A stretch of 48,179 nt of DNA from an uncultured Coriobacteriia bacterium (GTDB taxonomy: Bacteria > Actinomycetota > Coriobacteriia > Anaerosomatales > PALSA-660): contig CAIKZH010000190.1 of NCBI GenBank assembly GCA_903831865.1, forward strand, positions 1 through 48,179. Direction: 5' to 3'. The position numbers were made by a program, and so were the translations under genes. Shown one piece after another: positions 12,321 through 38,247 of the stretch. The notes beneath the pieces are model-generated. The model had not been told where the DNA came from. It made no database searches and saw nothing but the letters and a program-made list of their open reading frames with translations. Within the stretch, counting starts at the first letter, position 1. Each line of letters opens with the position of its first letter.

Positions 12321-14987
12321 CTAGTCGGCAAGCTCGACGAGCTGGCCCTCGAGCACCGCAACGTGCTCGGCGAGAGCATCCGCCCTCGCGCGGTCCTTGG
12401 CGATGATCTCCGGTGAGGCCTTCGCCAGGAAGCCTTCGTTGCCCAGCTTCCGGGTGAGCCGCTCGAGCTCGAACTGCGCGGCGCCGGACTCGCGGGCGAC
12501 CCGCTCGCGTTCGTGAGCGAAGTCGACGAGGCCCTCCAGCGGTATGTACAGCTCGGCGCCGAGCGCGGCTGCCACCGCGGAGTGGGCGGGCTTGGCCATG
12601 TCGGGCGCCAGCCGGAGCTCCTTGACCCCCGCGAGCGAGCCGATGAGGTCCCGCTCCGCCTCGATCAGCCGGGCGAGCCTGCCCTCCGCCCGCACGAACA
12701 GCCCGACCGTCGCGCGCGGCGAGACGCCGTAGCGCGACCTCACCGCCCGGACGGCGGTGACAATCGCCTGCACCGCGGCGATGGTCTCCTCGCCGTGAAG
12801 ACCGCGAGCGTCCCGCCATCCCGCGAGCGACTGCGGGTCCGGCCAGGCGGCGACCATGAGCGACGGCGCCGACTCTTCCGCCGGAAGCGGAAGGCGCCGC
12901 CATATCTCCTCGGTCACGAACGGCATCATCGGATGGAGCAGGCGCAGAGCCTTGTCGAGCACGAAGACGAGGTTGCGCTGCACGGCGAGTCGCCCGGCGC
13001 CTTCTGCCGTCAGGCGATCCTTCGCCAGTTCGATGTACCAGTCGCAGAACTCACTCCAGAAGAAGTCGTAGAGCGCCCGGGCGGTCTCGCCGAACTCGTA
13101 GGTGAGGATGCCCTCGTCCACCTGCGCAGCCAGTCCGGCAAGGCGCGACAGGATCCAGGCGTCACCCACCGTGTCGGCGGTCGGCGGCCCCGGGACGTAG
13201 CCGTCGAGGTTCATCAGCACGAATCTGCTCGCGTTCCAGATCTTGTTCGCGAAGTTGCGGCTGGACAGCAGCTTGTCCTCGCTGAACTTGATGTCCTGGG
13301 CGCCGGTGACCTGCAGCATCAGGCCGAATCTCATGCCGTCGGCCCCGTAGGTGTCCATCAGGTCGAGCGGATCGACCCCGGTGCCGAGCGACTTGCTCAT
13401 CCTTCTGCCCTCGGCGTTGAAGACCGTGGGGTGGATGATCACATCGCGGAAGGGCACGCCGCCCGCGAAGTGTATGCCGTTCATGATCATGCGTGCGACC
13501 CACAGGAACAGGATGTCGCGCGCAGTGGACAGCACGGTCGTCGGATAGAAGAAGGCGAGCTCAGGTGTCTTCTCGGGCCACCCGAGAGTCGCGAACGGCC
13601 ACAGCGCGGACGAGAACCAGGTGTCCAGCACGTCCGGGTCCTGGCGCACTCGGCCCCCGCAGTCGGGGCACAGCTCCAACTCCTCCTCGGTGACGTGCAT
13701 GGTGCCGCAGGCGTCGCAGTAGAAGACCGGGATCTGGTGGCCCCACCACAGCTGTCGGGACACACACCAGTCGCGGATGTTCTCCATCCAATGGAAGTAG
13801 ACGTTCTCCCACCGCTTGGGGTGAAAGGTCACGCGACCGTCGCGCACCGCGTCGATCGCGGGGGCCGCGAGCGGCTTCATGTCCACGAACCACTGGTCGG
13901 ACAGCCACGGCTCCACCACCGTGTGGCACCGGTAGCAGTGGCCGACGGGGTGGATGTGGTCGTCGACGCGCTCCAGCAGTCCGGCCGCGTCCATGTCCGC
14001 CACGATGCGCGTGCGAGCCTCGTAGCGGTCGAGCCCGGCGTAGGGGCCGCCCTCCTCGGTGATGGTCCCTTCGGCGGTGAGGACATTGATCTTCGCGCAG
14101 CCGTGCCTCTCGCCGATCTCGAAGTCGTTGGGGTCGTGCGCGGGCGTGACCTTGACCGCCCCGGATCCGAACGCGGGGTCGACGTACTCGTCAGCCACGA
14201 CCGGGATCTCGCGGCCCAGCAGCGGCAGCACGACGGTCGCACCCACGAGCCCTTCGTAGCGCTCATCCGACGGGTTCACGGCGACGCAGGTGTCGCCCAG
14301 CATCGTCTCCGGTCGCGTGGTCGCGACCACGACGTGATCGTGCCCCGCCACGGGCTCCTTGAGCGGGTAGCGGAAGTACCACAGGTGCGAGGCGACGTCC
14401 TCGTGCTCGACCTCGATGTCCGACAGAGCGGTGGAACAGCGCGGGCACCAGTTGATGATGCGCTTGCCGCGGTAGATCAGGCCCTCGTTGTACCAGTGCA
14501 CGAAGACGCGCTTCACGGCCCGCTGGTACTCGGGGTCCATCGTGAAACGCTCGTCGCCGAAGTCGCAGGAGCACCCCATCGCCTTGAGCTGAGTGATGAT
14601 CGTGGAGCCGTGGTCCGCCCGCCACGCCCAACACAGCTCGATGAACTTCTCGCGACCGACGTCGTCGCGCGTGAGGCCCTCGCTCGCGAGCTTCTGCTCG
14701 ACCTTGTTCTGTGTCGCGATCCCCGCGTGGTCCGTGCCGACGACCCACCTTGTCGGCTGGCCCGTCATGCGGGAGCGACGGATCACGACGTCCTGGATGG
14801 TGTTGTTGAGCGCGTGTCCCATGTGGAGCGAGCCTGTGACGTTGGGCGGCGGGATCACGACCACGAACGGCTTGGGCGCCTCTCCCACGGGGACAGGACA
14901 CTCGAAGTGGCGCTCCCGGGTCCACGACGTGAACACGGGGCCCTCGACCGCCTTCGGGTCGTACGCCTTTGGAAGCTCGTCAGCCAC
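12321..14987 (-). CDS. valS: Valine--tRNA ligase
   Basis: An 888-aa class I synthetase. The nucleotide-binding motif H-M-G-H lies near residues 55-58 (P-P-P-N-V-T-G-S-L before it), and M-S-K-S-L-G-T-G is the KMSKS motif. The editing insert (CP1) carries zinc-knuckle cysteine pairs (C-P-x-C and C-x2-C). A C-terminal coiled-coil arm (about 820-888) is typical of ValRS. I prefer the GTG at 14987 over the GTG at 14993, because AGGAG (14993-14997) would overlap the latter and sits 5 bp from the former. folC follows after 11 bp. The 170-bp upstream gap shows no T-box element. Confidence 0.97.
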   Translation of the reverse strand: MADELPKAYDPKAVEGPVFTSWTRERHFECPVPVGEAPKPFVVVIPPPNVTGSLHMGHALNNTIQDVVIRRSRMTGQPTRWVVGTDHAGIATQNKVEQKLASEGLTRDDVGREKFIELCWAWRADHGSTIITQLKAMGCSCDFGDERFTMDPEYQRAVKRVFVHWYNEGLIYRGKRIINWCPRCSTALSDIEVEHEDVASHLWYFRYPLKEPVAGHDHVVVATTRPETMLGDTCVAVNPSDERYEGLVGATVVLPLLGREIPVVADEYVDPAFGSGAVKVTPAHDPNDFEIGERHGCAKINVLTAEGTITEEGGPYAGLDRYEARTRIVADMDAAGLLERVDDHIHPVGHCYRCHTVVEPWLSDQWFVDMKPLAAPAIDAVRDGRVTFHPKRWENVYFHWMENIRDWCVSRQLWWGHQIPVFYCDACGTMHVTEEELELCPDCGGRVRQDPDVLDTWFSSALWPFATLGWPEKTPELAFFYPTTVLSTARDILFLWVARMIMNGIHFAGGVPFRDVIIHPTVFNAEGRRMSKSLGTGVDPLDLMDTYGADGMRFGLMLQVTGAQDIKFSEDKLLSSRNFANKIWNASRFVLMNLDGYVPGPPTADTVGDAWILSRLAGLAAQVDEGILTYEFGETARALYDFFWSEFCDWYIELAKDRLTAEGAGRLAVQRNLVFVLDKALRLLHPMMPFVTEEIWRRLPLPAEESAPSLMVAAWPDPQSLAGWRDARGLHGEETIAAVQAIVTAVRAVRSRYGVSPRATVGLFVRAEGRLARLIEAERDLIGSLAGVKELRLAPDMAKPAHSAVAAALGAELYIPLEGLVDFAHERERVARESGAAQFELERLTRKLGNEGFLAKASPEIIAKDRARADALAEHVAVLEGQLVELAD

Positions 14988-15104
14988 GCTCACTCCTCAC
15001 CTGTCGGGGCACTTCGGCGGCCACCGGTGGCAGCACGATGGCGCCGCGGCCCGCGCCGTTGCCCGATTCTACCAAGCCCGCCCCGGCGTGCCTGTTGATG
15101 CGAA

Positions 15105-15133
15105 CAGGCCGGGACGACGTGCGTCCCGGCCTG
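15105..15133 (-). terminator. Hairpin terminator after clpX
   Basis: Perfect 12-bp inverted repeat with a 5-base loop, 31 bp beyond the clpX stop codon and upstream of valS. It is GC-rich with only a short T stretch after it. It probably ends the tig-clpP-clpX transcript. Confidence 0.6.
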
Positions 15134-15164
15134 GTTCCCTCCCTGCGAGCGTGTCTGCGGGCAG

Positions 15165-16433
15165 CTACGCCCCGGCGACGCTCTCCTTGCCGGCCCGGAC
15201 GATGGTCGGCTCGGCGCCTTCACTCACGGCCTGCTCCGTGATGACGACCTCGGTCACGTCGGCGCTCCCGGGCAGGTCGTACATGAGATCGAGCAGCAGC
15301 CGCTCCATGATCGAGCGCAGTCCGCGGGCGCCGGTGCCGTGAGTCAGCGCCTGCTTCGCGACCGCGATGAGTGCGCCCTCGGTGAACTGCAGCCCCACGC
15401 CCTCGAGGTCGAAGAGTCTCTGATACTGCTTGACCAGCGCGTTCTTCGGCTCCGTGAGGATGCGCACCAGGTCTTCCTCGGTGAGCTCCTCCACGTGCGC
15501 GACCACCGGGACCCGACCGACGAACTCGGGGATCATGCCGAACTTGTGCAGATCCTCGGGAAGCACCTGGCCGAGGAGAACACCGGTGTCGTGGTGGATG
15601 GTGTCGGCGAGCTCAGCCCCGAAGCCGACGCCCTTCTTGCCCACTCTGGCCGCTACGATCTTCTCCAGCCCGACGAATGCACCGCCGAGGATGAAGAGGA
15701 TGTTGGTCGTGTCGATCTTGATGAGCTCCTGCTGCGGGTGTTTGCGTCCTCCCTGCGGCGGAACGTGCGCCTCGGTCCCCTCGATGATCTTCAGCAGCGC
15801 CTGCTGCACGCCCTCGCCGGAGACGTCACGGGTGATCGAGAGGTTCTCGGCCTTGCGGGCGATCTTGTCAATCTCGTCGATGTAGACGATGCCGACCTCG
15901 GCCCGCGACACATCGAACTCGGCCGCAGTGATGATCTTGAGCAGGATGTTCTCGACGTCCTCGCCCACATAGCCGGCCTCGGTGAGCGTCGTCGCATCCG
16001 CGATGGCGAACGGCACCTTCAGCACACGGGCCAGCGTCTGCGCGAGCAGCGTCTTGCCGCAACCCGTCGGCCCGAGGAGCAGGATGTTGCTCTTGGCCAG
16101 CTCGACGTCGCTGTCGTCCGCGACGGACTGCTGACGAACGCGCTTGTAGTGGTTGTAGACGGCGACCGACAGGACCTTCTTCGCGTCGGCCTGCCCCACC
16201 ACATACTCGTCGAGCACGTGGAAGATCTCGCGGGGCGTGGGGAGCTCGCCGGAGAAGGCCTTGTCGCGCCTCTCTTCTTCCAGCTCCTCGTCAACGATCT
16301 CGTTGCACAACTCGACACACTCGTCGCAGATGTAGACACCCGGACCTGCGATGAGCTTGCGGACCTGGCGCTGCGGCTTGCCGCAGAACGAACAGGTCAG
16401 ATGCTCCGGACCGTCCTTTGCGCTGCCGGGCAT
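15165..16433 (-). CDS. clpX: ATP-dependent Clp protease ATP-binding subunit ClpX
   Basis: A 422-aa AAA+ unfoldase that feeds substrates, including tmRNA-tagged proteins, to ClpP. The N-terminal zinc-binding domain has C14, C17, C36 and C39. The AAA+ core has Walker A G-P-T-G-C-G-K-T (about 118-125) and Walker [10 protein letters not shown]. The IGF-type ClpP-contact loop is not obvious from a simple reading and was not assigned. The ATG start has a GGAGG upstream. clpP ends 11 bp before it, giving the operon order tig-clpP-clpX. Confidence 0.97.
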
Positions 16434-16444
16434 CCGGCCGCCTC

Positions 16445-17050
16445 CTACTTGTCCCCGCGATGCACCATGACGCCGTCCACGAGCCCGTAGGCCTGGGCCT
16501 CTTCAGCGGTCATGATGTTGTCGCGCTCGGTGTCCAAGTGGATCTTGTCGACAGCCTGACCCGTGTGAGTTGCGAGGATCACGTCGAGAGACGCCCGCAT
16601 GCGCAGCATCTCTTTGGCTTGGATCTCGATGTCGGTGACCTGTCCCTGGGTGCCTCCCCAGGGCTGGTGGATGAGGATCCGGCTGTTGGGGAGAGCGAAC
16701 CGCTTGCCGGGCGAGCCGGCGGCGAGCAGCACCGCGGCCATGCTCGCGCACTGACCCACGCAGCTCGTGGCCACGTCGCAGCGGATGTACTGCATGGTGT
16801 CGTAGATGGCGAGACCGGAGGTCACACCGCCACCGGGCGAGTTGATGTAGAGCTGGATGTCCTTCTCGGGGTCCTCGGACTCCAGGTGCAGCATCTGGGC
16901 GATGACGAGGTCGGCGATCTGGTCGTCGATCTCATGCCCCAGGAACACGATCCGCTCGTTGAGAAGGCGCGAGTAGATGTCGAAGCTGCGTTCGCCCCGG
17001 CTGGTCTGCTCGACGACGATCGGAACGAGCGCGTTGGTCTCGGGAAACAT
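16445..17050 (-). CDS. clpP: ATP-dependent Clp protease proteolytic subunit ClpP
   Basis: A 201-aa serine peptidase. Its catalytic residues can be placed at S103 (G-Q-C-A-S-M-A-A), H128 (I-L-I-H-Q-P) and probably D173 (H-L-D-T-E-R-D). The oligomerisation and substrate-binding segment S-P-G-G-G-V-T-S-G lies at 71-79. It starts directly after the trigger factor stop codon; its ribosome-binding site GGAGAG lies within the end of tig, so the two are coupled. Only one clpP copy is present in the window. Confidence 0.97.
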
Positions 17051-18493
17051 CTATTCACTCTCCTTCGGCGCGGACTTCTTCGGCGCCGTCTTCTTCGCCG
17101 GCTTCTCTGCCTTGGGTTCCGGCGCCTTCTTTGCAGCCGCCTTCGGCTTGGACGTACCCGTCTTCTCGCCCTTTGCTTCGGAGACGAGGGGCTTGGGCTC
17201 TTCCCCGACCACCTCGGCGTGCTCGACGACCCAGGCGAGCGCCTTCTGATGCATCAGCTCCTGCCGCAGCATGGGGAGGACGCCGCCCTCCCAGAGACGC
17301 TCGCGGACCTCTTCGACGGGCAGGCCCTGCCCTTCGGCGGCCCTCACGATCTCCGCCTCCATGTCCTCGGGCGTGAACTTGAGACCCTCCTGGCGGTAGA
17401 GCGCCTCGAGCGCCATGTCCTCGCGCTCGGCCTCATGCGCCTGGCGCACGATGTCCTCGTTGAGCTTCTCGGTGGTGATCCCGGACTCCTCGAGGAACTT
17501 CTCGATACTGCTTTCCTGCTTCTCCAGCTCGCCGATGAACTGGTTGAGCATGCGCTGGGTGCGGTCGAAGATGACCTCGTCGGTGACTTCTCCGTCGAGT
17601 CTCTCTGCGATGGCCGCGGCGGCCTCGCGCTCGACGAGCTTCTCGCGCGCCACCGCCTTGCTCTCGACCAGAGCCTTGCGGATGTCGTCGCGAAGCTCGG
17701 CCACGGTTGCGAAGCCGCCTACGGTACCCGCGAAGTCGTCGTCGAGAGACGCGAGCACCTTCTCCTTCACCTCGTGGACCTCGACGTCGAACGCGGCGAT
17801 CTTCCCGTGGTACTCCGAGTTCTCGGCGTCTTCGGGCACCGCGAACTCGACGTGCACGGTGTCACCGGCATGTGCGCCGATGAGGCCCTGGTCGAACTCG
17901 GGCGGCATGATGCCGTGGCCCATCTCGTAGAGGTACTTCTCGACCTTCAGGTCCTTGGCGCCCTGCCCGTCGACGGTCCCGGAGAACGTGAGCAGGACGA
18001 AATCGAACGGGTTGACGCCGCGGTCCTCGACGACCTGCAGGCTCGCATAGCGGTCACGCAGGTATTGGATCTCGGAATCGACCTCGGCGTCCGTCGGCGT
18101 GTTGACAGGCACCGTGACCTTGAGATCCTTGACCGAAGTGAGCTTCATCTCGGGACGCACCGTGACCTCGGCCGTGAAGGTGTAGTCCTCGTGCTCCACC
18201 AGGGGCACATGCTCGTCCGACTTCACTCGAAGTGCGATGAGGCCCTGGTCCTCGATGGCGATCGGGCCGCTGGACTCGATGAGCGCCTGACGCGCCTGCC
18301 CGAGCACCTCGTCGCGCCCGATCTGGGCGTCGATGATGGGGCGAGGGGCTTTGCCGGGCCTGAAGCCCGGCAGCTTGGTGTCGCGCGCGATGGCGGCGTA
18401 CATCTTCGAGATGAAGTCGTCCACCTCGCCGGCGGTCCGAGTCACCGTCAGGCGGACCAGATTGTCTTCGAGCTTCTCGACGCTGCTTTTCAA
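17051..18493 (-). CDS. tig: Trigger factor (ribosome-associated chaperone)
   Basis: A 480-aa protein with the ribosome-docking loop G-F-R-P-G-K-A-P (43-50), a central FKBP-like domain (about 155-245) and a helical C-terminal chaperone domain. Beyond about residue 440 the chain runs into a low-complexity tail rich in lysine, alanine, proline and glutamate, about 40 residues longer than in E. coli-type trigger factors. The start is TTG at 18493, placed 7 bp after a strong AGGAGG. It heads the tig-clpP-clpX operon. Confidence 0.96.
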   Translation of the reverse strand: MKSSVEKLEDNLVRLTVTRTAGEVDDFISKMYAAIARDTKLPGFRPGKAPRPIIDAQIGRDEVLGQARQALIESSGPIAIEDQGLIALRVKSDEHVPLVEHEDYTFTAEVTVRPEMKLTSVKDLKVTVPVNTPTDAEVDSEIQYLRDRYASLQVVEDRGVNPFDFVLLTFSGTVDGQGAKDLKVEKYLYEMGHGIMPPEFDQGLIGAHAGDTVHVEFAVPEDAENSEYHGKIAAFDVEVHEVKEKVLASLDDDFAGTVGGFATVAELRDDIRKALVESKAVAREKLVEREAAAAIAERLDGEVTDEVIFDRTQRMLNQFIGELEKQESSIEKFLEESGITTEKLNEDIVRQAHEAEREDMALEALYRQEGLKFTPEDMEAEIVRAAEGQGLPVEEVRERLWEGGVLPMLRQELMHQKALAWVVEHAEVVGEEPKPLVSEAKGEKTGTSKPKAAAKKAPEPKAEKPAKKTAPKKSAPKESE

Positions 18494-31486: not shown

Positions 31487-32287
31487 TCACTTCTCGCTGT
31501 CGCTCAACCCGACCACCACATAGGTGCCCGAGCGTTGATCGACTCTCAGGGAGACCAGACCCAGCCGCTCGGCGTCCTCGAGCATCGCCTGGAACGTCCT
31601 GTAGCCGAAGCCAGACTCGGAGAAGTCCGGCTGCTTGCGCTTCATCGTGTCCTTCACGAGCGAGCTGTACATGACGTCCTTGTTCTCCCGCTGAAGGGCC
31701 TGCACAGAGTCCACGAGAAGCTTCATCGCGGGGCGCTTGGCGCGCGGGACCACGGTCGCCGATACGCTGGGACTCGCCTGATGCTTCGCCAGGTCCTCGT
31801 AGTAGACGAACTCGTCGCAGCTCGACGCGAGAAGGTCGGAGGTCGACCCCTTCATCCCCAGGCCTATCACCGACTTGCCGTTCTCCTTCAGCTTTGCGAC
31901 GAGAGGCGTGAAGTCGGAGTCGCCCGAGACGATGACGAACGTGTCGACGTGCTCCTTGCTGTAGCACAGGTCCATCGCGTCGACGCATAACTGGATGTCA
32001 GCGTGGTTCTTCCCGGTCTTGCCTCGCTCGGGGATCTCCATCATCTGCACGCCGGAGTCGTGCATGACCTCGCGATACTTCTCGAATCTCCCCCAGTCCG
32101 CATACGCGCGCTTGACGATGACCTTCCCCTTCTCGACGAGCCTCTCGAGAATCGCGTTCACGTCGAGCGTCTCCCCGGCCTTCCTCCGTGGTGCCCTGCC
32201 GGTCGTGGGCTCACGGTCGCGCTCGAAGCCGAGCGCCAGGTTCTCGAAGTCGATGAAGACGGCGAGAGAGTGCGCCTCGTCAGCCAT
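31487..32287 (-). CDS. NYN-domain (PIN-like) protein with OST-HTH/LOTUS domain
   Basis: A 266-aa protein of the LabA/DUF88 type. The NYN domain (residues 7-160) has the acidic residues expected for a PIN-fold nuclease: F-I-D-F-E-N near residue 13, H-A-D-I-Q-L-C-V-D-A-M-D-L, and S-G-D-S-D-F-T-P-L-V. The C-terminal 80 residues fit an OST-HTH/LOTUS domain (M-K-L-L-V-D-S-V ... F-S-E-S-G-F-G-Y-R-T-F), which binds RNA. The combination suggests an RNA-targeted nuclease or RNA-binding regulator; its targets are unknown. It is divergent from the cytochrome region. Confidence 0.8.
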   Translation of the reverse strand: MADEAHSLAVFIDFENLALGFERDREPTTGRAPRRKAGETLDVNAILERLVEKGKVIVKRAYADWGRFEKYREVMHDSGVQMMEIPERGKTGKNHADIQLCVDAMDLCYSKEHVDTFVIVSGDSDFTPLVAKLKENGKSVIGLGMKGSTSDLLASSCDEFVYYEDLAKHQASPSVSATVVPRAKRPAMKLLVDSVQALQRENKDVMYSSLVKDTMKRKQPDFSESGFGYRTFQAMLEDAERLGLVSLRVDQRSGTYVVVGLSDSEK

Positions 32288-32701: not shown

Positions 32702-35281
32702 ATGCGACTTAACCGATTGTACGTACTAATGGCCTTCGCGGTGGCAGCCGCGGTGGTCATCGCTCTGCCGGCGGCCGCGTTCGGGCTCCTGACGAACAGC
32801 TACGGCATGAGCTTCGACGGGACGCACACCGCAGGCGGCAACGGCTGCCAGGACTGCCACGGCGACCTGTACAGCCAGACCGCGCACGGCGCCTACGTCC
32901 AGTGGACGACGATCCCCAGCGACCCGGGCATGTGGCCCGCGGGGCGCCCCGGACTCGGCAACACGGTCAGCCAGAGCCAGATCGCGTTCACGATCTACGG
33001 GTCCCCTGGCCTCATAGGCGGCGCTCTGGGAGACTCCGAGTACGTGGCGGCGTCCAGCGCCGTCACGGGCACCTACAGCGGGCCGTTCTCGATCGTGAAC
33101 GGTCTTGAGTGGGACGCCAGCGCTCCGAACGGTTGGGAGATCGGCAGCGCCGCCGGTGCGGCGAGTGGGCTGTCATTCGGCAACTACACGTGCAGCCAGT
33201 GCCACCAGCTCGGCGTCACGCGCGTCGGAGTGAAGCCCGCCGCCGGGAACTTCTCCGGTTCGGCTCTCGCGACGGTCGACGCGTGGGCGAGAGACCCGTC
33301 CACCAACCCGTCGCTGACCGCCAGCTACATGCAGGGCTCCGGGATCCAGTGCGAGCGCTGCCACGGGACCGGCGTCGCCGCCGGCTCGATCGCAGCAGGC
33401 GAGCATTGGAGCGCGGGCGTGCAGATCGTCGGTTGGGACACGACGAGCACCAACCCGAACGCGCGCGCGGCAAGCCAAAAGATCCTCGATTCGCAGACCT
33501 GCGGTCAGTGCCACGGCACGTTCAAGAACGGCAACATCGTAGGGTTCACACCCGACGCGACGATCACCGACTTCGTAGGCAGCTACGGCCCGACCGACGT
33601 ACCGACCGTAGCCTCCTTCTCGGTGAGCCCGGGCTCCTACAAGTTCTATCCGACCGGTCACGACAAGCAGGGAGGCCTGAAGCACTCCTACTACACCGAG
33701 TGGGCCATGTCCCCGCACTCATGGCGCGGTCATCTCACGGCCTCGTCTCCGAACGCGACTCCGTACCAGAAGTACGGGTGGCAGGAGCTCAACGAGAACG
33801 CTGCCAACGGCACTCCCGGCAAGGTGGAGACAAGTCACTTCAGCGAGTCCACCAACGGCAGCGTGGTGTGCAACAAGTGCCACACCGGTGAGGGCTACAT
33901 GAAGCGCAAGGGCGTCGCGATCATCCAGAACCTCGTCGAGTCGACCTCCACAGAGGGATTCCTCGGCACCGAGTGCTCTTCGTGCCACGTTGTCCACGGT
34001 GCGGCGACCGCCACCGGCATGTCGATCCGTCAGCCGGAGCAGGCCTTCGGTCCCGTCGGCACCTCGACGAACGGCTTGGCCATCTCGAACCAGTCCATCT
34101 GTGAGGACTGCCACAACTGGCAGCTGGAGGTCCAGGGCCTGCCGCTCACGGTCACGAGCTCTCTCAGCCACCCGCAGCGCGAGATCTACCACGGTCGCGC
34201 GTTCTTCGAAGTCCCGCAGATGCCGGACTTCATGCCGGGCGTCAGGTGTGAAGAGTGCCACATGCCGGCGACCTACAGCGACACCCCGAGCGAGACCACG
34301 GTCCCGCGCTACGACAACGAGAACTACAAGCGCTACAGCCACACGTTCATGATCATGGAACCTGGCCAGGCCACGTCATGGGGCGTCCTGCCGGCCGCGG
34401 ACTCCTGCTCACCGTGTCACACGGGAGAGTCGCAGTCTCAGCTGCAGGGAAACCTCGCAACCTGGTTCTCCACGGCCAAGACGCTCAACACGCAGCTGAC
34501 CACCGCGCTCACGGCGGCCAAGTCGCGTCCTGAGACGCAGACGACGGGTGGCCTGTACCTGTTCCAGGCGGCCACCAAGAACCAGTCGATGTTCACGGCA
34601 GACGAGTCGCTTGGCGCGCACAACCCGCCCTATGAGCAGGCTGCGCTCACCAAGTCCACCTTCCTCGCCAACGAGGTCGGCGGCGCCTTCGCCAACGCGG
34701 GCGTCCTCTCCGGACCGTCCACAGTCACGACCGGTTCCGTCAACTTCATCGCTGGCGGCGTGGACTTCGGCGACGGATCCCCTGCCGCCGGGGCCTCGCT
34801 GACACTGCTCGCGAACAACGTCCCTGTCGCCGCCACGACCGCTGATGTGAACGGGGCGTTCTCGTTCATGATCACGCCGTCAGCGACGACTTCCTACCAG
34901 GTGCGCTGGGAGCGGTCGAGTCAGACTTCGACCTACCTCTTCAGCACCACCAAGACGGTCACGATCGCCGGTGCGCCCACGACGATCACGATCAGCTCCA
35001 GCACGGGCAGCGTCGCCGTCAACCACCAGTTCATCCTGAGCGGTCTCGGCACCCCGTCCGGTCTCATCGGCCTGAACATGCACGTCGACGTGAAGAAGCC
35101 GGGCAGCTCCCACTTCAGCTACTCGTCGGCACGCACGTTCTACAACAGCGGAGGCAACGCGGCGTGGCAGTACAAGTACACGCCTCTTGTCACCGGAACA
35201 TACCAGTTCAGGGCCATTTGGGACGGTAACGCCAGCTTCGCACCGTCTCAGTCCGGCCTCGTGCTGGTGAGCGTTCACTAG
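32702..35281 (+). CDS. Secreted nine-heme c-type cytochrome with C-terminal Ig-like domains
   Basis: An 859-aa exported protein. The signal peptide (1-26) ends A-L-P-A-A-A-F. Nine CXXCH heme sites start at residues 49, 164, 217, 267, 390, 425, 467, 516 and 569, irregularly spaced. One is C-E-E-C-H-M-P, a form common in multiheme oxidoreductases. No C-terminal membrane anchor is seen. Residues about 690-855 are free of heme sites and rich in Thr/Ser/Val, resembling two Ig-like or carboxypeptidase-regulatory domains, a type used for surface display. It is followed by a strong terminator and then by the 22-heme lipoprotein. I infer an extracellular or cell-surface electron-transfer role; whether it is a reductase or a conduit cannot be decided. 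Confidence 0.88.
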   Translation: MRLNRLYVLMAFAVAAAVVIALPAAAFGLLTNSYGMSFDGTHTAGGNGCQDCHGDLYSQTAHGAYVQWTTIPSDPGMWPAGRPGLGNTVSQSQIAFTIYGSPGLIGGALGDSEYVAASSAVTGTYSGPFSIVNGLEWDASAPNGWEIGSAAGAASGLSFGNYTCSQCHQLGVTRVGVKPAAGNFSGSALATVDAWARDPSTNPSLTASYMQGSGIQCERCHGTGVAAGSIAAGEHWSAGVQIVGWDTTSTNPNARAASQKILDSQTCGQCHGTFKNGNIVGFTPDATITDFVGSYGPTDVPTVASFSVSPGSYKFYPTGHDKQGGLKHSYYTEWAMSPHSWRGHLTASSPNATPYQKYGWQELNENAANGTPGKVETSHFSESTNGSVVCNKCHTGEGYMKRKGVAIIQNLVESTSTEGFLGTECSSCHVVHGAATATGMSIRQPEQAFGPVGTSTNGLAISNQSICEDCHNWQLEVQGLPLTVTSSLSHPQREIYHGRAFFEVPQMPDFMPGVRCEECHMPATYSDTPSETTVPRYDNENYKRYSHTFMIMEPGQATSWGVLPAADSCSPCHTGESQSQLQGNLATWFSTAKTLNTQLTTALTAAKSRPETQTTGGLYLFQAATKNQSMFTADESLGAHNPPYEQAALTKSTFLANEVGGAFANAGVLSGPSTVTTGSVNFIAGGVDFGDGSPAAGASLTLLANNVPVAATTADVNGAFSFMITPSATTSYQVRWERSSQTSTYLFSTTKTVTIAGAPTTITISSSTGSVAVNHQFILSGLGTPSGLIGLNMHVDVKKPGSSHFSYSSARTFYNSGGNAAWQYKYTPLVTGTYQFRAIWDGNASFAPSQSGLVLVSVH

Positions 35282-35319
35282 AGCCAGGCCCTCGTAGGGG
35301 AGAGAGTCCCCACGAGTCG

Positions 35320-35352
35320 GAGAGCCGCGACGCGAGATGCGTCGCGGCTCTC
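35320..35352 (+). terminator. Hairpin terminator after the nine-heme cytochrome gene
   Basis: 14-bp perfect inverted repeat with a 5-base loop, 38 bp after the stop codon. It lies 81 bp before the second cytochrome gene, so that gene may have its own promoter in the AT-richer stretch 35365-35395. Confidence 0.75.
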
Positions 35353-35433
35353 TCGCGTTGCGAGTCGGATTACTGTTAGACTTACTCGCGGTGTGTGTGA
35401 GGCTCGAGCCGGGCAGGGAGAAGGGGCAGCTTA

Positions 35434-36966
35434 GTGGCGCGCAAGTCTGCGGTCTGGCTGATCGGGTTCTCATTCATCATCGCGGCTGTTGTCCTCGCTG
35501 GGTGCACCGCCTCATCGACGGTCAAAGGCCCGCCTGTGACGCCGAAACACCCCGCCTTCGCGGCAGGCCAGGCGTGTGACGCGGCCGGCTGCCACGACAA
35601 GTTCAAACATCAGCAGCCCTACGCAGGGCAGCAGTGCGACCTCTGCCACAACCTCACGAACTGGTCTCATGTCACCTATCACCACCGGGACGCCACCTTC
35701 GACAACGGCATGCACCCGCTGCTCGGGTGCTCGTACTGCCATACCGAGGGCCAGCCCCTGCCGACCGGCGGCTGCGGCACCTGCCATGACGCCCCGCACG
35801 GCGGCTGGACCCAGTGCACGTCCTGTCATACCACTCTGGCCTGGGACCTCCGCAAGCCGGCCCCCCACGGCCACCTCTCGCTGCTCGGCGGTCACTCCAG
35901 CCTCACGTGCCTGGAGTGCCACTCGACTCCCAAGGAGCCGGTGAAGCCACGCCAGTGTGTGGACTGTCATAACACCCACCACACACCAACCGTGAGCGAC
36001 TGCCAGGACTGCCATGATCCAGCGCTCGGGTGGGATCACGCGAAGCCCGGGTTCCCCCACAGCGTCTTCTTCAAGCTGGTCGGCGCCCACAAGAAGCTCG
36101 ACTGCACGCAGTGCCACAAGAACGGCGTCTTCGGCGTCCTGCCGAGAGTCTGCGTCGGCTGCCACGGGTCTCACCACGGCGGCCTCACTGACTGCGCCGA
36201 GTGCCACACCACGACGTCGTTCATCCCGTCGACGTTCAACCACTCTTCGGTGTTCCCGCTCACCGGCCGTCACAGGAGCCTGTCGTGCTCTGAGTGTCAT
36301 CCACACAACCGGTTCGCGCAGAACATCGGCCACGGCAGCACCGCGTGCGTCGCTTGCCACGGCCCGCATCACGGTGGCCTCACCAAATGCGCCTCATGCC
36401 ACACCACAGCAGGCTTCCAGTTCACGACTTTCCGGCACACGAGGGTCTTCCCGTTGGTCGGCACGCACGCGAAGATCGCCTGCACCGCCTGCCACGCCCA
36501 CGGCGCCTACGCTCACGTCAAGGGCACGCACTGTGTGAACTGCCACGGAGTGCACCACGGGAATCAGACGCAGTGCCAGAACTGCCACACCCCCACGACT
36601 TTCGCCACGACTCTGCCGATCGTGCACCCGGACTCGGCTGTGCCGCTCGGTCCGTCGCACGCGTGGCCCAATCCCTGCACGCGCTGCCACCCCAGCAATG
36701 TGTTCAACACGCCGACCACGCCGTGCTCGTCGTGCCACACTGCGCCGCATGTCGGACCGACCGACTGCCTGACCTGCCACTGGCCCACCGTGTGGAGCGA
36801 CACGCACTTCACTCATCCGGACATGCCGGGAGGGGCACCGCACACGTCGACGAGCTTCGGCGGCTATCCCACCGGGTGCGCACACTGCCATCCGGGCGGC
36901 GGAAGCGACGGCGTAGACTTCACTGACTACACATGCATCGAGTGCCACGCGTTCGTGCACCCGTAG
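35434..36966 (+). CDS. 22-heme c-type cytochrome lipoprotein of repeated tri-heme modules
   Basis: A 510-aa protein with a lipoprotein signal (hydrophobic core 7-22, lipobox V-L-A-G-C). It has 21 CXXCH sites and one CX4CH site (C-D-A-A-G-C-H) near residue 50. From residue 83 on, the chain is a run of modules beginning with a histidine at 83, 145, 209, 270, 335, 398 and 461 (61-65 residues apart). Each of the first six has three CXXCH sites and about three extra histidines, in the pattern H-x-x-[FL]...L-x-G-x-H...CXXCH...CXXCH-x-x-H-H-G...CXXCH. The last module has two sites. The extra histidines would allow bis-His coordination of every heme. It recalls the triheme c7 polymers of Geobacter (GSU1996). 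The start is GTG with GGGG upstream. I infer a membrane-anchored electron wire crossing the cell wall. Confidence 0.9.
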   Translation: MARKSAVWLIGFSFIIAAVVLAGCTASSTVKGPPVTPKHPAFAAGQACDAAGCHDKFKHQQPYAGQQCDLCHNLTNWSHVTYHHRDATFDNGMHPLLGCSYCHTEGQPLPTGGCGTCHDAPHGGWTQCTSCHTTLAWDLRKPAPHGHLSLLGGHSSLTCLECHSTPKEPVKPRQCVDCHNTHHTPTVSDCQDCHDPALGWDHAKPGFPHSVFFKLVGAHKKLDCTQCHKNGVFGVLPRVCVGCHGSHHGGLTDCAECHTTTSFIPSTFNHSSVFPLTGRHRSLSCSECHPHNRFAQNIGHGSTACVACHGPHHGGLTKCASCHTTAGFQFTTFRHTRVFPLVGTHAKIACTACHAHGAYAHVKGTHCVNCHGVHHGNQTQCQNCHTPTTFATTLPIVHPDSAVPLGPSHAWPNPCTRCHPSNVFNTPTTPCSSCHTAPHVGPTDCLTCHWPTVWSDTHFTHPDMPGGAPHTSTSFGGYPTGCAHCHPGGGSDGVDFTDYTCIECHAFVHP

Positions 36967-37062: not shown

Positions 37063-38247
37063 TCACCCCGCGGCGTCGCCCGTGGCCGGAGGACCGTCCC
37101 TGACCGCACCGGTGTCTGACAGCATGAGCGCGATGTGTCCTCGGATCGGACTGAATGCCGAGACTGATATCCATTTCCCGGCCGACGCCACGTACACCTC
37201 CACCTCGCTGGACTGGCCCGTGAGTGCGACCGGCGCGAGCGTCGCACGCCAGTCGATGTCGATGCCTCCCACAAGCGCGATGGCTTCGCTCGCCGAGCAT
37301 CCGATCAGCTGCTCGGCCCGCAGCGAGAACATGCTCTCCAGCGCACGGTTCACCTCGATGATGACGTAGTCCATGGGCCGGTTGCGGCGATCGAGTACGA
37401 CCCTCATGAGCGCGAAGCCAGTCGCCATGTGCTCGAAGACGGACTGGTACTTCGCCTGGCTGCGTCGCAGGGCCTCCTCCGCCCGCCGGCGGTGTGTGAG
37501 GTCGCTGAGGATCACAAGGGCGCTCTCGCGCTCCCCCGCGACATCCACCGGCGAGAAGCGCATCTGGAAGTAGCGCAGGCCCCTTCCCGTCGAGAGTTCG
37601 GACTCGGCCGTGTGCCCGGTCGCCCCCGAGACGCGGAAAGCGGCAAGTTCTCTTCGAACGGGTCCCGGCAACTGGAGAGTCCCGTCCGAGCGGCGGCCGT
37701 TGGAGTCGTCGGCTACCAGAAGCGCCGCGTCGTTGTGGAAGAGCATGGTCCCGTCTCGCGCGATGATGAAGGCGGGCATCGGCAGAGCGGCCAGCATGTT
37801 CGCATCCTTCAACACCGGAGCGCCTGCATCGCCATCTTCGAGGCGTTCCGCGATCGCAAGCGTCTCGAGCTCCAGCCGGTCGAAGAGCGCGTCCACGGTC
37901 CTCATATGGGGCAGGAGCGCGTCCGGCGACATCGCCGACGAATCGAGGACGTCGAGGAAGCCGTCACGGAACGCTTTCACGGCGGCGAGACACGTGGCCG
38001 CGCGGGTGCTCGTACACGCCTCCGACACCAGGCGGGCCGCGACCTCGGCGGGAGGCGTCGTGTGCGCCACGAGGGCAGTCGCCACATCCTGAGAGAGTGC
38101 ACGCACGTCCGCCGTCAACGACACCGCACCACCGGTGATCGCGCGCTCGCGCACGCTCGCAACCACCCGGTCGAGGTCGCCGAGGATCAGTCCTTCGAAC
38201 TCGTGCACGGCCTCTCCGTTCCCCACCCCAGCGACAGGGACCCGCAA
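37063..38247 (-). CDS. Stand-alone double-PAS sensor protein without output domain
   Basis: A 394-aa soluble protein. The N-terminal 140 residues are helical and not recognised. Two PAS domains follow (about 150-255 and 265-380); the second contains the V-F-E-H-M-A-T-G-F-A motif and ends in the typical I-A-L-M-L-S-D-x-T strand. A helix linker of the form D-L-T-H-R-R-R-A-E-E-A-L-R-R-S lies between them. Normally such a chain continues into a GGDEF, kinase or phosphatase domain, but it stops 14 residues after the PAS. A TTG start is used and is uncertain. It converges on the cytochrome genes and precedes, on the same strand, nothing else. A partner output protein must lie elsewhere. Confidence 0.75.
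   Translation of the reverse strand: MRVPVAGVGNGEAVHEFEGLILGDLDRVVASVRERAITGGAVSLTADVRALSQDVATALVAHTTPPAEVAARLVSEACTSTRAATCLAAVKAFRDGFLDVLDSSAMSPDALLPHMRTVDALFDRLELETLAIAERLEDGDAGAPVLKDANMLAALPMPAFIIARDGTMLFHNDAALLVADDSNGRRSDGTLQLPGPVRRELAAFRVSGATGHTAESELSTGRGLRYFQMRFSPVDVAGERESALVILSDLTHRRRAEEALRRSQAKYQSVFEHMATGFALMRVVLDRRNRPMDYVIIEVNRALESMFSLRAEQLIGCSASEAIALVGGIDIDWRATLAPVALTGQSSEVEVYVASAGKWISVSAFSPIRGHIALMLSDTGAVRDGPPATGDAAG

Follow-up and report, generated by a model that had tools for sequence, protein, structure and literature searches.

We analyzed a 48,179-nucleotide contig of an uncultured Coriobacteriia bacterium (CAIKZH010000190.1, assembly GCA_903831865.1; hereafter, the window), in which a gene for a predicted 22-haem lipoprotein lies directly downstream of a gene for a homolog of OcwA from Thermincola potens. 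The 22-haem gene (35434..36966, forward strand) starts with GTG, ends with its stop codon at 36966 and encodes 510 amino acids. Its product contains 22 haem sites, namely 21 CXXCH motifs and one CX4CH motif at residue 48. The calculated mass of the mature protein, excluding the lipid, is 52.1 kDa for the apo form and about 65.7 kDa with all 22 haems. Shuffled proteins of the same composition contained a mean of 0.45 CXXCH motifs and four at the most, which rules out a chance repeat. The N-terminus, MARKSAVWLIGFSFIIAAVVLAGC (35434..35505, forward strand), is a predicted lipoprotein signal peptide with a positively charged n-region, a hydrophobic h-region and the lipobox LAGC24, whose Cys24 would be lipidated; the same genome encodes Lgt (E = 8e-73). 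Genes for cytochrome c assembly were also found in the genome. Thus, the reading frame, coordinates, site count including the single CX4CH, and lipobox given in a first-pass annotation of this DNA were all borne out by the sequence. The Pfam family Cytochrome_C7 (PF14522) matched the protein in seven stretches (75.5 bits against a cut-off of 24.8, E = 2.8e-21). When the window's own genome was searched with PF14522, the 22-haem lipoprotein itself was missed, so the negatives of that search mean nothing.

The haem sites are arranged in a regular repeat, as that annotation had described. Six tri-haem modules (35683..36810, forward strand), delimited by conservation, start at His 84, 147, 209, 270, 335 and 398, and each shows the layout His-x6..10-His-CXXCH-CXXCH-His-CXXCH over 61–65 residues. 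The haem sites are spaced by 14–20 residues within modules and by 31–37 between them. Pairwise identity is 48–51% among modules 3–5 and 33–44% for the outer modules. A two-haem piece, defined by sequence and homolog conservation, flanks the modules at either end. In the N-terminal piece (35548..35649, forward strand; H39, CX4CH48, H59 and CXXCH68), the order CX4CH, His, CXXCH is that of the final two haem sites in a module; the C-terminal piece (36814..36966, forward strand; H461, H470, CXXCH482 and CXXCH501), with two histidines ahead of two CXXCH motifs, is equivalent to the initial two. Since both end pieces are truncated modules, the protein is a continuous repeat with truncated ends.

Next, the histidines outside the CXXCH motifs were compared among nine aligned homologs. 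Exactly 22 of them were kept in at least seven of the nine, which provides one candidate distal ligand for each haem. These are His 39 and 59; 84, 94 and 122; 147, 154 and 183; 209, 219 and 248; 270, 280 and 313; 335, 345 and 375; 398, 409 and 439; and 461 and 470, a pattern of 2 + 6×3 + 2 along the chain. This one-to-one correspondence indicates a genuine repeat that is maintained by selection and could provide every haem with bis-His ligation, for which enough histidines had been noted initially. The module-start histidines listed at that time were confirmed at 209, 270, 335, 398 and 461, whereas those at 83 and 145 were not, the conserved residues being H84 and H147.

The gene directly upstream (32702..35281, forward strand) encodes an 859-residue protein with a Sec-type signal, nine CXXCH motifs and a C-terminal Ig-like/CarboxypepD_reg region. 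It aligned with T. potens OcwA (PDB 6i5b) in two stretches (E = 1.8e-19), and Pfam assigned MtrC/MtrF-like and Cytochrom_C552 matches. With its nine haem sites and the similarity of its haem domain, it may be regarded as OcwA-type and is probably the terminal oxidoreductase partner of the 22-haem protein. The same gene order was observed in L039, L041 and L042, where the partner is 36–41% identical to that of the window, and in L031 a more distant seven-haem protein occupies the partner position. Relatives' partners carry CW_binding_2 wall-binding repeats (L028/L042, L024/L039 and L025/L041; E = 1.8e-21 to 4e-51). Two wall-binding proteins encoded elsewhere in the window's genome contain no CXXCH and are therefore not alternative partners. 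Strong OcwA homologs (E < 1e-100) were present in 6 of the 12 genomes that carry the 22-haem family and in one of the 49 that do not (Fisher p = 1e-4, a statistic that ignores phylogeny). The 152-base gap between the paired genes (35282..35433, forward strand) contains two strong hairpins without a U-run (fold z = −3.4) and the purine-rich, ribosome-binding-like stretch that precedes the GTG start. These hairpins may represent a terminator, an attenuator or a processing site, so that co-transcription of the pair should not be taken for granted.

A tblastn search of 60 related genomes then identified family members in 11 others, at 40–57% identity to the 22-haem lipoprotein, with values of 42–57% for homologs aligned over its full length; two further entries of that search (L013 and L014) were rejected as NapC-like repeat proteins of another kind. 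In a profile search of 398 genomes of the class, the family was found in 15, all within the window's order, and when 396 genomes of the phylum were searched, those beyond this order gave matches at the module level only. A search of genome contigs with the single protein sequence gave no matches, whereas the alignment-based search did; its named records were coriobacterial and actinobacterial metagenome-assembled genomes and EMTCatB1, a biocathode actinobacterium, with one weak nine-haem Anaerolineales match as the sole exception. Multihaem genes of EMTCatB1 are highly expressed on the biocathode (PMC7943316). We infer that the window's genome belongs to OPB41/Anaerosomatales, of which published members have Gram-positive walls and 17–18 multihaem cytochromes and one is an obligate Fe(III) respirer (PMC9686372).

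Counting modules in homologs, a check that the first-pass annotation had proposed, showed that haem number changes by whole modules, giving 20–24 or more haems. The EMTCatB1 protein (L042) contains an extra, near-identical tandem module, and those of L029 and L031 are longer. In L030, three modules give way to numerous copies of another repeat with two haem sites (CASCHPTTWDHKPLHDS...CATCH); this protein extends past the contig end with at least 32 haem sites. The lipobox is kept in the window protein, L021, L022, L023, L026 and L029, while a membrane helix without Cys replaces it in L024, L025, L027 and L028 and, by reading, in L030 and L031. Thus, N-terminal anchoring, as judged from these signals, is conserved although the means differ (lipobox or uncleaved helix). 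The first haem site also varies among homologs (CX4CH, CXXCH or CXXCK). CXXCK, seen in L024, L025, L027, L028 and L029 and, by reading, in L030, is in these proteins the site of the haem closest to the membrane anchor; this motif is known from the catalytic haem of NrfA and requires a dedicated lyase.

On the membrane side, the same tri-haem module was found fused to a NapC/NirT quinol-oxidase head in two genomes from other parts of the phylum, L066 (17 haems) and L068 (11 haems). Two multihaem proteins of the NapC/NirT type, L092 and L093, are encoded in the window's own genome. Regarding other neighboring genes, a protein with an NYN nuclease domain and a weak match to OST-HTH/LOTUS (31487-32287, reverse strand) and a PAS-domain protein (37063-38247, reverse strand) adjoin the cytochrome pair on the OcwA and the 22-haem side, respectively; the latter, in which the Pfam scan found no kinase domain, is a possible sensor. 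In L026, a 13-haem, 1145-residue DUF5648 protein is encoded at 14824-18258 (reverse strand), about 5 kb from the 22-haem gene.

Taken together, the 22-haem protein is real and conserved and most probably belongs to a chain for extracellular electron transfer. The conduit role that was initially suggested has become more likely because of the adjacent OcwA homolog and the NapC/NirT fusions of the same module. We consider it rather probable that the protein acts as a single-chain, membrane-tethered haem relay that passes electrons into the wall and to the OcwA-like partner. Through its lipidated N-terminus, the chain would be attached to the cytoplasmic membrane on the outer side, and its six modules together with both end pieces would line up 22 haems with bis-histidine ligation. 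Quinol-oxidizing cytochromes, possibly the two NapC/NirT-type proteins, would deliver electrons to the chain at the membrane, from where they would hop along the 22 haems into the wall and be handed to the nine-haem protein encoded just upstream. The OcwA-like protein may then meet the final acceptor, which could be an Fe(III) mineral, an electrode, a shuttle or an oxyanion. We infer here that the sites are loaded with haem, that the haems follow one another linearly within hopping distance, that the two proteins make contact and that electrons flow outward.

Several observations weigh against this relay. An AlphaFold2 model of the full protein built with nine homologs reached a predicted local distance difference test (pLDDT) score of only 40 and was discarded. 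A 31-row alignment of three modules was too gappy to be used, and a two-module model (23 rows) reached a pLDDT of 82 and a predicted template modelling score of 0.55; Foldseek found no match to this model in the PDB. As a wire, the protein is therefore viewed by analogy with the Geobacter sulfurreducens cytochrome GSU1996, whose haems are 3–5 Å apart (PMC10138318). The window's own partner showed no recognized wall-binding domain in the Pfam scan and has the Ig-like C-terminus instead. Half of the 12 genomes with the family have no close OcwA homolog, so the partner is either not obligatory or replaced. In addition, chain length amounts to about 1 nm per haem, giving an estimated reach of about 20 nm at most. 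In contrast, a Gram-positive wall is 20–80 nm thick (PMC7911101).

The genomes lacking a close OcwA homolog would also agree with an electron store, in which electrons would be kept on the 22 haems at the membrane for as long as an acceptor is missing, without a specific hand-over to a surface reductase. Storage is a role proposed for Geobacter periplasmic nanowire cytochromes and is favored for GSU1996 (PMC10138318), which shares the overall build of the window protein. However, conserved anchoring and OcwA homologs with wall-binding repeats point to position-dependent transfer, and storing and relaying are not mutually exclusive; we thus regard a pure capacitor as unlikely. The Cytochrom_C552 match of the partner raises another explanation, that the partner serves oxyanion respiration rather than extracellular electron transfer, as a reductase of the nitrite, sulfite, tetrathionate or thiosulfate type with the 22-haem protein as its membrane-side donor. 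This appears quite improbable: a soluble substrate requires neither a 22-haem spacer nor wall-binding domains, and the nearest solved structure to the partner is OcwA, with NrfA far behind (E = 0.24). Even less probable, in our judgment, is inward electron uptake from cathodes, minerals or partner cells. The pair in EMTCatB1 (L042) stems from a biocathode whose multihaem gene expression suggested uptake (PMC7943316). However, L042 could not be linked to the locus tags of the induced genes, and electrons can in principle run either way along a haem chain.

How electrons pass a thick peptidoglycan wall is an open question, and the Thermincola model leans on a wall cytochrome that resisted purification in folded form. 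The recurrent pairing of a tethered haem chain with an OcwA homolog bearing wall-binding domains would offer an expressible two-protein system for tests of trans-wall transfer, and the modular chain could serve as a ready-made series of lengths for the engineering of protein wires.

Among c7-type solved structures, a one-module profile, which had been proposed as a check, matched GSU1996 best (PDB 3ov0/3oue; E = 1.4e-6), followed by PpcA (E = 4e-4). These matches are weak and the order of distal histidines differs; hence, the suggested Geobacter c7 analogy holds for architecture only. Like GSU1996, the window protein is a single chain of consecutive tri-haem domains with short linkers. However, GSU1996 has 12 haems in four domains and no membrane anchor, whereas the window protein has 22 haems in six modules and two end pieces and a predicted lipid anchor. 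In addition, one haem in each GSU1996 domain is His-Met ligated (PMC10138318), as opposed to 22 conserved distal histidines for 22 haems here. PpcA-type cytochromes c7 (PF14522) similarly contain three CXXCH motifs per ~60–70 residues. The distal ligands of PpcA, which we take to be His 17, 20 and 47, end with one that precedes the second CXXCH, while the third distal His of the window modules follows the second CXXCH and the first two are 7–11 residues apart. The strict c7 order, His-His-CXXCH-His-CXXCH-CXXCH, was found in none of the aligned modules, all of which read His-His-CXXCH-CXXCH-His-CXXCH, and a strict PpcA/GSU1996-type c7 label was rejected on this order. The NapC/NirT-headed quinol oxidases of L066 and L068 share the module and membrane anchoring, but the window protein lacks the quinol-oxidizing head and is predicted to be lipid-anchored.

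A very high haem number alone is not new, as illustrated by GSU2210, a modular periplasmic cytochrome with 27 haems (PMC10138318), and by a putative quinol oxidase with 20 haems from Carboxydothermus ferrireducens (PMC7829351), another of the NapC/NirT-headed type. Thus, the module number and lipid anchor, initially singled out as unusual, are not so, since relatives also carry an uncleaved helix instead. The closest functional counterpart is the ImdcA–PdcA–CwcA–OcwA chain of Thermincola, which follows the same Gram-positive logic of a membrane cytochrome, a wall-crossing cytochrome and OcwA as surface reductase, and for which a soluble decahaem cytochrome and an OmcS-like hexahaem polymer have been proposed to span the wall (PMC7911101). 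By this analogy, the 22-haem protein would functionally most resemble the middle of that chain, with a covalent, membrane-tethered chain beside an OcwA homolog in place of PdcA and CwcA. It is quite possible, if still short of probable, that this represents a distinct solution to wall crossing, in which a covalent tethered chain of about seven tri-haem units, resized by whole modules and docked to a wall-bound OcwA-type reductase, replaces the soluble shuttle and polymer proposed for Thermincola.
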